Assembly: GCA_014238905.1 (NCBI GenBank)
Contig: JABAAE010000012.1
Location: 1-64,000 of the forward strand
Source: Planctomycetota bacterium
Lineage (GTDB): Bacteria > Planctomycetota > Planctomycetia > Pirellulales > Pirellulaceae
Length of the DNA stretch: 64,000 bases
Reading direction: 5' to 3'
How positions within the stretch are numbered: position 1 is the first letter of the stretch; each line of letters opens with the position of its first letter. Under the pieces are notes generated by a model that saw only the letters and a program-made list of their open reading frames with translations, was not told the DNA's origin and did not search any database. This document shows positions 6,136-10,092 of this stretch, one piece after another. The position numbers and the translations under genes are program-made.

Positions 6136-8244
6136 TCATGAACCAAAAAAATTGGCGATCGCATCAAGACCGACCAAGGGTGAGGTGCAGGCGTAGTTTT
6201 CGCAAACGTACACCGTGGGCTGGTGATCGATGGGTTCTTTGCCTTCCAATAATTGCGATGCGACCAACCCGGTTTGAACGATCGACTCAGTTTTGTGGCA
6301 GATGATTTGATTTGGAGAAAATCGCTTTTGGATTAGCGATACCACCTTGGCTCTGTTTGACTCGTCGGCACAGATCACCACCTGTCGGTTGCTGGACCCC
6401 AAACTGTCCAGGGTCGCCAGCATTTGTCCGGCCGCCTGAGGCGAGCTGTCGATCAAATCGTTCGCAGCATCCACCGTTTGTAGGGCAAGCGAGCGGTAAG
6501 TCTCGTTGCCGGTCAAATTGCTCAGTCGAACCAGGCAAAACGCCATCATGGAATTTCCACTGGGAACGCTACTGTCCTGGAATTCCTTGGTCCTTGCAAT
6601 AAGCGATTCAGCATCATTGGCTGAATAGAAAAATGCGTGGTTGTTTTCGTCGTGGAATTTCCCAATGGCTAATTCCGCCAGTCGATTAGCGTGGACGAGC
6701 CATTGCGATTTTCCATCACACTCAAAGAGCGTAATCAATGCATTGATAAAATAGGAATAGTCATCAAGGTAGCCAGCGATTTTCGCTTGACCGTGTCGGC
6801 AACACCTCAGCAAGCCGCCATCGGGGCTGACCATTTTTTCAAGGATAAATAGGGCAGCCATTTCCGCTGCAGAGGAAAATTTTGGTTCCATGAGAATCGC
6901 TCCTGCTCTTGCCATGGGAGGAATCATCAGTGAATTCCAACTGACTAGGATTTTGTCGTCCTTTCCTGGGCGGATTCGCTGATCTCGGGCCTGCAGCAGG
7001 CTGGATCGCCAGATTTGGACCTGTTCTAGGAATTCTTCGACCGACCAATCGCCGTTGGGGTTGGTGGCCGTTTCAGCGATTTCTTCCAGAGGCTGCCGCA
7101 GGTTGAGGATGTTTTTTCCCTCGAAATTACCCTCGGCAGTCACATCGTAGATACTGCAAAAAGACTTGGACGCCTCTTCTCCAATAATTAGGCTTATGTC
7201 TGAGGGGGTCCAAACATAGAATTTCCCTTCCTCGCCTTCACTGTCGGCATCTTCGGTGGAGTGGAATCCTCCCCCGGTATCGGTCATGTAGTTTAGCTGG
7301 TAGCTCAGAGTCTCCCGAATGATCTTCTCGAAGAGCGGTTTTCCGGTAATCAAGAGAGCATCCAGAAAGGCATCCATCAGGAGCCCGTTGTCGTACAACA
7401 TTTTTTCAAAATGCGGGACCAGCCATTTGGCATCTACGCTATAACGTGCAAATCCCCCGGCGAGATGATCATAAATACCCCCCAGAGCCATCTTTTCCAG
7501 ATTTAATTCCACCATTTTCATCCAGCGGGTGTCTGATGGGGGTTGGGTGTCCGCTGCGGCGGAATGGCGATGGTGTAATCGCATCAAGACCTGTAAGCCC
7601 ATGGTGTGTGGGAATTTAGGAGCTTGGCCGAATCCGCCGTTGGCAAAATCGAAATTTTCCTCGAGAGCTTTTCCTGCCTTCTCGAGGATGTCTCCCTCAA
7701 GCAATCTGCCTTCGTCGAAAGTATCTGACCGGCGGTGAAAGCTTGTATTGAGATGCTGCGTCACGTTTTTTGATTGTTCGTTGACCTGTTGTCGTCGGTT
7801 TTGGAAAGCGTCTAGCACGCTTTCCAAAACCCGGTTGAATCCTGGCATTCCACGTGAATCGGTCGGCGGCCAGTAGGTGCCGCCGAAGAAAAGATCACAT
7901 TCAGGTGTCAGAAATGCTGAAAGCGGCCATCCGCCCTGTCCACGTTGCAGGGACATGACCGCCTGCATGTAAATCTGGTCTAGGTCGGGGCGTTCCTCTC
8001 GATCGACTTTGATGCTGATATAGTTTGCGTTTAAAAATTCAGCGATTTGCGTGTTTTCGAAGCTCTCATGCTCCATCACATGACACCAATGGCAAGCGGA
8101 ATAACCGATTGAGAGGAAAATGGGTTTGTCTTGAGTACGGGCGGTGTCAAGCGCCTCCTGTCCCCAGGGATACCAATCCACCGGGTTGTTGGCGTGTTGC
8201 AACAGGTAAGGGCTTGATTCTTTGGAAAGTCGATTGGATTTCAT
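6136..8244 (-). CDS. Thioredoxin-domain protein DUF255 (YyaL / SPATA20 family)
   Basis: 702 residues. The N-terminus [25 protein letters not shown] is the family hallmark, followed by the thioredoxin-like active site SACHWCHVM. The rest is an alpha/alpha-toroid region resembling N-acylglucosamine 2-epimerase folds ([30 protein letters not shown]). The cellular function of YyaL proteins is not established. ATG 8244 is chosen because it places the family N-terminus at residue 2; a TTG at 8271 would extend it by nine residues. There is no signal peptide, so it is predicted cytoplasmic. It is divergent from ahcY. Confidence 0.93.
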
Positions 8245-8388
8245 GGGATGGGTAAATAATATGGATGTCAAAAAGGAAGCCGGTTGGTATTTTTTTGTTA
8301 TCGCTGACGAGTATTTTCGGTGTTTAGGGGATAATAGAGTCCTTTAGATATTCCAAACACTTTGGATGCCAAGTATCATCGATTCAAT

Positions 8389-8421
8389 GGGTGAGTTGAC
8401 GTAATTCACCCTTTTTTTTTT
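8389..8421 (+). terminator. Intrinsic terminator-like hairpin in the ahcY leader (possible attenuator)
   Basis: gggtgagtt (8389-8397) pairs with aattcaccc (8403-8411) over nine base pairs, one of them G-T, around a five-base loop, followed at once by ten Ts (8412-8421). This is a textbook intrinsic terminator on the + strand, yet it lies 57 bases before the ahcY start and no + strand gene precedes it; the upstream gene is divergent. It can therefore only act on transcripts heading into ahcY, as an attenuator or riboswitch platform would, unless a promoter lies between the T tract and the start codon. Confidence 0.75.
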
Positions 8422-8478
8422 GCGACTGCTGAGGGGAGTCTTCGCGGCGGTTCGTTTTTTGAGATGGAGACCAACAAA

Positions 8479-9819
8479 ATGGCACAAGTTGAAACCGAAA
8501 GACTACCCTATAAAGTAAAAGACATTTCTTTAGCCGAATATGGCCGCAAAGAAATTGAGATCGCCGAAAACGAAATGCCCGGCCTGATGGCCTTGCGGGA
8601 AAAGTATGGCGAATCCAAGCCCCTCACCGGTGCTCGCATCGCAGGGTGCCTGCACATGACCATTCAGACGGCTGTTTTGATCGAGACCCTTGTTGAACTC
8701 GGGGCTGAGGTCACCTGGAGCAGCTGTAACATTTTCAGCACCCAAGACCATGCCGCCGCGGCAATTGCTGCAGCGGGAATTCCCGTTTATGCGTGGAAAG
8801 GGATGAATGATGAAGAGTTCGATTGGTGTATCGAGCAGACTCTTCATTTTCCTTCTGGGCAGTCTTTAAACATGATTCTCGATGATGGAGGTGATCTGAC
8901 CGCCATGGTCCATGATCGGTTCCCGGAGTTATTGAACGATGTGAAGGGGATCAGTGAGGAAACGACCGCAGGAATTCATCGACTTGAAGTATTGAATCGG
9001 ACAGGAGCTTTGCGTGTTCCGGCAATTAACGTGAACGATTCGGCTACCAAGAGCAAGTTTGACAATTTGTATGGTTGCCGAGAGTCATTAGCAGACGGTG
9101 TCAAACGAGCGACTGATGTCATGTTGGCTGGCAAGGTTGCCGTGGTTTGTGGCTATGGTGATGTCGGAAAAGGCTGTGCTCACAGTCTTCAGCGTTATGG
9201 TTGTCGAGTCATCGTCACCGAAATTGACCCGATTAATGCGTTGCAGGCGGCGATGGAAGGTTTTGAAGTCACTACGATGGAGGAAGCCTGCAAAGAAGGT
9301 CGGCTCTATGTCACCACAACGGGAAATAAAGAGATCATCCTTGGTGAGCATATGGAGAAAATGCCTAATGATGCTATTCTTTGCAATATTGGCCACTTCG
9401 ACACCGAAATCGATGTCGCGTGGCTAGAGTCTCAGGTTGAATCTGGCAAGGTCAGCAAATCGGAAATTAAGCCTGCGGATATTGGGGCGGTGGATCGGTA
9501 CACGTTTGCTGAAACAGGGCGTAGTCTTCTGATTCTGGCAAAGGGCCGCTTGGTCAATTTGGGTTGTGCTACCGGACATCCCAGCTTTGTGATGAGCACC
9601 TCTTTTACCAATCAGGTTTTAGCTCAAATGGAGCTTTGGTCTAACACTGGGGGCTACGAAACTCAGGTTTACATGTTGCCCAAGCGATTGGATGAGGAAG
9701 TCGCACGATTGCACTTGGACAAACTTGGTGTGCGGTTGACGGTTTTGACGCAGGAACAAGCTGATTATATTGGTGTACCTGTCGACGGACCCTACAAGTC
9801 GGAGCACTATCGTTACTAA
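8479..9819 (+). CDS. ahcY: Adenosylhomocysteinase (SAH hydrolase)
   Basis: 446 residues, normal for the family. It reversibly splits S-adenosylhomocysteine into homocysteine and adenosine, clearing the inhibitor left by SAM-dependent methylation. Seen: substrate-binding [32 protein letters not shown], the NAD-binding [20 protein letters not shown], and the conserved C-terminus [13 protein letters not shown] 8479 has GGAG nine bases upstream, so it is preferred over ATG 8464. It is monocistronic, between a leader hairpin and a strong terminator at 9900. In this window the cytosine methyltransferase, arsS and mtaB would all use SAM. Confidence 0.97.
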
Positions 9820-9855
9820 ATCGCTATCGTTACTAAATAGCTGTCGTTACTAAAG
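9807..9855. repeat. 17 bp tandem repeat, three copies, overlapping the ahcY stop
   Basis: Unit ctatcgttactaaatcg at 9807, 9824 and 9841 (third copy 15 bp with one change). The first copy contains the last codons and the TAA of ahcY; the others carry the same TAA in noncoding sequence. Confidence 0.9.
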
Positions 9856-9899
9856 CACTCGCGAAGCTAGAACGTCAGGGCGACAATCGAATAAAAAAA

Positions 9900-9926
9900 C
9901 GGGGTCCATTGGGCCCCGTTTTTTTT
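9900..9926 (+). terminator. Rho-independent terminator of ahcY
   Basis: cggggtcc/gggccccg form an eight-pair stem around the loop att, followed by eight Ts. The stem is preceded by seven As, so it may work in both directions. Confidence 0.9.
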
Positions 9927-10092
9927 AATACCGGTTTTGGATTTACGAGACCGGTCTGGCACCTTTCATGCGGGGCAGTGGAGTACGGTTCGTTAAAGGC
10001 AGGTTGAGAGAAAACTACAATTCGTCTGGATGGAAACGCATCGTGTCATACAATAGGTTGACCCCAATCACTACATTCAGGAATTTGGAATA

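Follow-up and report, generated by a model that had tools for sequence, protein, structure and literature searches.

The window, a 64,000-nucleotide stretch of DNA from a Pirellulaceae genome close to Rhodopirellula and Rubripirellula, carries an ahcY gene on the + strand at positions 8479–9819. The predicted protein matches the Pfam families AdoHcyase (4e-135) and AdoHcyase_NAD (4e-76) and is annotated here as S-adenosylhomocysteine (SAH) hydrolase. This enzyme clears SAH, an inhibitory compound that every SAM-dependent methylation leaves as a by-product. An alternative in-frame ATG is present at 8464, but the start is inferred to be the ATG at 8479, where the proteins of relatives start at the matching residue and a GGAG sequence is suitably spaced. 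The gene upstream encodes a DUF255/thioredoxin-domain protein and is divergent, on the - strand, with its start near 8243. Thus there is no annotated + strand gene that requires a terminator before ahcY, as the earlier note had stated.

Another genome of the genus, G001, was used for comparison; its ahcY is 88% identical. The intergenic DNA upstream of ahcY has mostly diverged between the two, but three islands are kept. These are ATTCAATGGGTGAG..TTCACCC-T7, GTGCTGAGGGGAGTCTTCGCGG, and the ahcY start region. The features of the leader and the gene are as follows.

8351–8356, + strand: predicted -35 region TTCCAA, in ungapped register with G001 and 17 nt before the -10 box in both
8374–8379, + strand: predicted -10 box TATCAT, with TAAGAT in the same place in G001
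8387–8404, + strand: possible leaderless micro-ORF AUG GGU GAG UUG ACG UAA, overlapping the 5′ arm of the hairpin
8389–8411, + strand: terminator-like stem-loop (hairpin scan, fold z); G001 keeps 8 pairs, −11.3 kcal/mol
8412–8421, + strand: run of ten T, from the sequence; G001 has T7 in the same place
8422–8454, + strand: AGUC stem-loop with apex GGGGAGUCUUC and AGUC at 8437–8440; apex kept in G001, outer pairs covary
8466–8469, + strand: Shine-Dalgarno-like GGAG, from the sequence; retained in G001
8479–9819, + strand: ahcY, from Pfam matches, with the start placed from relatives

The GGGTGAGTTGACGTAATTCACCC stem-loop at 8389–8411 runs directly into T10, and the ahcY ATG follows 57 nt further on. 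The stem has 9 pairs plus one G-U pair that closes an ACG loop (the scan tallies 10 pairs, 4 of them G-C), and folds with −12.5 kcal/mol and z = −4.14, a value equaled by none of 200 shuffles. A base rate was obtained from 464 kb of the window's genome, with genes approximated by long ORFs. On both strands together, 26 hairpins followed by T runs are found. Only the one before ahcY has both a divergent upstream neighbor and a gene on its own strand starting approximately 64 nt downstream; in one looser parallel, also with a divergent neighbor, the distance to the same-strand ORF is 135 nt. Runs of at least ten T on either strand occur four times in the 464 kb. The nine-pair stem and T10 described in the earlier note are borne out, and the structure is genuine, rare and above chance level.

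The hairpin is kept in the sister genome, but no compensatory changes are seen in the stem between these two sequences. When 119 ahcY leaders were scanned with one rule, a T-rich terminator hairpin was found in only two, those of the window and G001. Conservation in related leaders, on which the earlier proposal depended, thus extends to the sister genome but not to the other 117 leaders, and the hairpin cannot be an ancestral control of ahcY. In the G001 leader a further hairpin, with a bulge (GTAGTCGATTCG..CGAATCGCTAC; −15.1 kcal/mol, z = −3.8), runs into T6. It lies downstream of the T7 run and ahead of the AGUC stem-loop, which results in two tandem terminator-like structures in this leader. 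A stable stem passing directly into a U run, the mark of an intrinsic terminator, is found at 8389–8421, and the hairpin with U10 is predicted most likely to act as a promoter-proximal intrinsic terminator.

The sequences TTCCAA-N17-TATCAT in the window and TTCCAA-N17-TAAGAT in G001 are in ungapped register and end 9 nt before the stem. TATCAT is a conserved -10-like box in the ahcY leaders of two related genera (g13 and g85), and TACAAT or TATACT is found in others. The TTCCAA sequence fits the -35 consensus at 3 of 6 positions, and a consensus promoter scan calls no promoter at 8351–8379 because the -35 is weak. From the conserved boxes we infer that transcription starts at about 8386–8387, 2–3 nt before the stem; a literature search gave no relevant published transcription starts for Rhodopirellula or other planctomycetes. 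A start at about 8386 would leave no room for an aptamer before the terminator, and structure in the ahcY mRNA would begin with the hairpin. The predicted start also coincides with the AUG of the micro-ORF, whose counterpart in G001 reads AUG GGU GAG UCG UAG; with two sequences compared, this conservation may be due to chance.

The second structure of the leader lies after the T run. In the window it has the form CUGCUG-A-GGGG-AGU-CUUC-G-CGGCGG with outer pairs GCGA/UCGU. G001 has an identical apex, and its outer pairs are CACG/CGUG, a compensatory change. Rhodopirellula sallentina and a Rubripirellula MAG are among about 55 relatives, spread over seven genera, whose ahcY leaders carry closely similar copies of an element with an AGUC tetraloop. 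Its full form is GCGTTCGGGG-N-GCGnACC-AG-CGGG-AGTC-CCYG-TGNTN-GGTnCGC-N-CCCCTCTGACGC, ahead of ahcY, and some genera retain the core and inner stems alone. When 28 distinct sequences are aligned, pairing is complete in the inner 4-bp stem (100% of cells) and weaker in the outer helices (~82%). Two-sided changes over the whole structure amount to 26 cells vs 11.7 in shuffles. A model made from this alignment (R1) gives strong matches at ahcY only, and weaker matches, 28 bits at most, exist. No Rfam family matches the element of the related leaders. Conserved promoter-like boxes are found upstream of it, and thus the element is probably transcribed. A possible upstream ORF starting from GTG within the element (GGGAG-N5-GTG) was considered and rejected, as it is not conserved; the codon is GCG in one leader (L004) and the frame length varies.

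The window's stem-loop shares position, the 5′ AG and GGGAGUC with this main clade. For an ahcY-leader hairpin to count as an AGUC element, its AGUC loop had to be closed by a stem of 4 or more pairs; in the window an AGU triloop fold is preferred, and an AGUC tetraloop would have just 3 pairs directly beside it. The stem-loop's fold taken alone surpasses shuffles by a modest margin only (z = −1.8 and −1.5). Model R1 gives the window's stem-loop no score, its best value in the window being 4.3 bits at 8310–8371, which is chance level. The shared features suggest that the stem-loop is probably a divergent member of the AGUC family.

AGUC-tetraloop hairpins are also found on unrelated stems in the ahcY leaders of about six further lineages. 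The stems are TTGCG/CGCAA, GTCGC/GCGAC, GCCGGG/CCTGGT, GCCGC/GCGGT, GGAA/TTCC, GCGGA/TCCGT, and GGCG/TGCC. Among 59 mutually dissimilar leaders that lack the main core, AGTC ranks first of the 256 tetraloops, with 9 leaders vs 4 for the next and a mean of 0.63. This ranking is an independent test, but AGTC had been noticed before it was made, and some of the nine leaders are from close relatives, which leaves about six independent cases. Thirteen representative hairpins show 95% of cells paired and a covariation of 0.93 vs 0.32 when shuffled and at most 0.33 when slid; they were mostly picked for having a hairpin and thus these pairing figures are partly by construction. In the window's genome an AGTC hairpin is found in 1 of 312 other upstream regions. 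The ahcY-leader AGUC hairpin looks like an undescribed RNA element.

Several minor observations concern the distribution of the hairpin. Two leaders of genus g82 (L157 and L174) each carry two AGUC hairpins about 20 nt apart, TTGCG-AGTC-CGCAA and GTCGC-AGTC-GCGAC. The single case among the 312 upstream regions, on contig C3 of the window's genome (G000) upstream of the ORF at 112558–113472, is a perfect 10-bp hairpin, AAGACGGCCT-AGTC-AGGCCGTCTT. An order-wide search for the pattern outside the clade gave five matches (G254, G330, G345, G395, and G401), which were rejected as all are within long open frames; four of these read RVLVIGGG.

The earlier note had read the terminator-like hairpin as the expression platform of an SAH- or SAM-responsive riboswitch or attenuator, in which an aptamer at approximately 8290–8388 controls the terminator. 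The gene behind the terminator-like hairpin does belong to the SAH cycle, as this reading supposes, and Proteobacteria carry SAH riboswitches before ahcY (PMC4239095). However, the conserved promoter-like block puts the predicted start 2–3 nt before the stem, the sequence at 8290–8350 is poorly conserved in G001, and the leader taken as a whole is not more stably folded than its shuffles (z = −1.4). A small hairpin, TCCAAA/TTTGGA, is indeed present at 8352–8357/8361–8366 but is not kept in G001 (TTCCAAATCATCGTG), and given the predicted start it would be promoter-region DNA. The statement that the leader holds no known SAM or SAH aptamer agrees with the Rfam covariance-model search. The SAH riboswitch (RF01057) gave no match at the gathering threshold or at a relaxed E-value in the window leader and 19 related loci, and the other SAM/SAH families of Rfam 15 gave none in the window leader or related loci. 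A search of 30 genomes for RF01057 also gave no match, but the control genomes gave none either and this result is uninformative alone. A match to rli42 (23 bits vs a gathering threshold of 80) came from an A/T-rich stretch and the terminator and was rejected as chance level. A riboswitch or attenuator of this kind is therefore not supported and appears improbable. The suggestion that the leader holds a new type of RNA may be right, but the element would be the AGUC hairpin downstream and not an aptamer upstream. The AGUC hairpin is transcribed after the terminator and thus cannot be the terminator's aptamer.

Other readings give the stem at 8389–8411 a different function. It may stabilize the ahcY mRNA against decay, in which case the U run would be incidental. 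The predicted start, which sets the stem at the extreme 5′ end, and the few G-C pairs are in keeping with such protection, but the T runs that immediately follow the stem in the two diverged genomes (T10 and T7) suit termination better, as do the second hairpin and T6 in G001; protection is considered unlikely. An insulating terminator against upstream or antisense transcription, with the true ahcY promoter at or after the hairpin, would fit the divergent upstream gene and the tandem terminator-like hairpins of G001. It would also require a promoter where no TANNNT box is found (8405 to 8462), while the conserved promoter-like block precedes the hairpin, which makes insulation quite unlikely. 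The stem is at the DNA level a perfect dyad, GGGTGAgTT-N5-AAtTCACCC, that adjoins the predicted start, and could thus be a repressor-binding operator, cf. SahR in Proteobacteria, whose operator is a 20-bp palindrome. The dyad is unlike the ATC-N10-GAT consensus common to SahR and SamR sites (PMC4239095), no further copy with 0–1 mismatch is found in either genome of the genus, and the T run is left unexplained; there is only a slim chance that it is an operator. As for the AGUC hairpin, a CsrA (RsmA) site is suggested by a GGA at the apex of many members and by the 5–8 CsrA-like proteins encoded per genome (G000, G001, G013, G036, and G209), an unusually high number. But members such as GTCGC-AGTC-GCGAC, TTGCG-AGTC-CGCAA, and GCCGC-AGTC-GCGGT carry no GGA and the conserved feature is AGUC, and a CsrA site is very improbable.

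The best explanation overall, to which we give somewhat less than an even chance, combines a 5′-proximal terminator that sets read-through into ahcY with a separate and older AGUC leader element. The ahcY mRNA of this genus would begin at about 8386 with the hairpin and then U10, i.e. with an intrinsic terminator in the first ~36 nt. Polymerases that pass the terminator would continue through the AGUC stem-loop (8422–8454) to the ribosome-binding site, and the terminator would thereby set, and possibly regulate, read-through into the gene. With this start no aptamer could precede the terminator, and any regulation would be confined to the first ~25 nt of the nascent RNA. Candidate regulators are a protein and a ribosome engaged on the leaderless AUGGGUGAG..UAA frame, which spans the 5′ arm. 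The AGUC hairpin would act post-transcriptionally, on translation or stability, by binding a partner via its loop. A further reading takes the AGUC hairpin for a novel and very small class of cis-regulatory RNA sensing the SAH cycle, through a metabolite or the AhcY protein, with a layer of transcriptional control added in this genus by one or two promoter-proximal terminators; this is doubtful, if a real possibility.

Two RNAs are known from ahcY leaders, the SAH riboswitch in Proteobacteria and the SAM-Chlorobi motif (PMC4239095, PMC2864571), the latter preceding ahcY and metK in Chlorobi (PMC2864571). The AGUC hairpin resembles the SAH riboswitch (RF01057) in being a structured RNA in the ahcY 5′ leader, but that riboswitch is known from Proteobacteria and is not matched in the window or its relatives, and the AGUC hairpin consists of one small stem-loop. 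The SAM/SAH riboswitch (RF01727) and the SAM-Chlorobi motif (RF01724) are likewise leader RNAs of SAM-cycle genes; here neither has an Rfam match, and the strong matches of the main-clade model are at ahcY only. The Rhodopirellula-1 motif is also a candidate cis-regulatory RNA from Planctomycetes (PMC2864571), but it covers Proteobacteria as well as Planctomycetes and is given without an Rfam accession in that paper. Given the Proteobacteria in its listed range, this motif is unlikely to be the same as the AGUC element. With leader-terminator transcription attenuators the ahcY leader shares a predicted intrinsic terminator between promoter and gene, but no antiterminator fold or aptamer is predicted before the terminator, the stem is at the predicted 5′ end, and the only methionine of the micro-ORF is its start. 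A literature search found PMC2864571 as the only match combining ahcY, riboswitch and Planctomycetes, and no account of ahcY regulation in Planctomycetes. Attenuation by a terminator that falls within ~36 nt of the 5′ end of an mRNA would be an unusual arrangement. A hairpin that is specific to ahcY, invariant in its AGUC loop and free to vary in its stem would be a compact and directly testable RNA recognition element.

Two further features are present at the 3′ end of ahcY. A 17-bp tandem repeat (CTATCGTTACTAAATAG, 2.8 copies, 9807–9854) spans the last codons and the stop codon and enters the 3′ flank. Beyond it, at 9897–9930, lies a strong terminator-like hairpin (AAACGGGGTCCATTGGGCCCCGTTT followed by Ts) with −17.7 kcal/mol, and the other strand scores as well.
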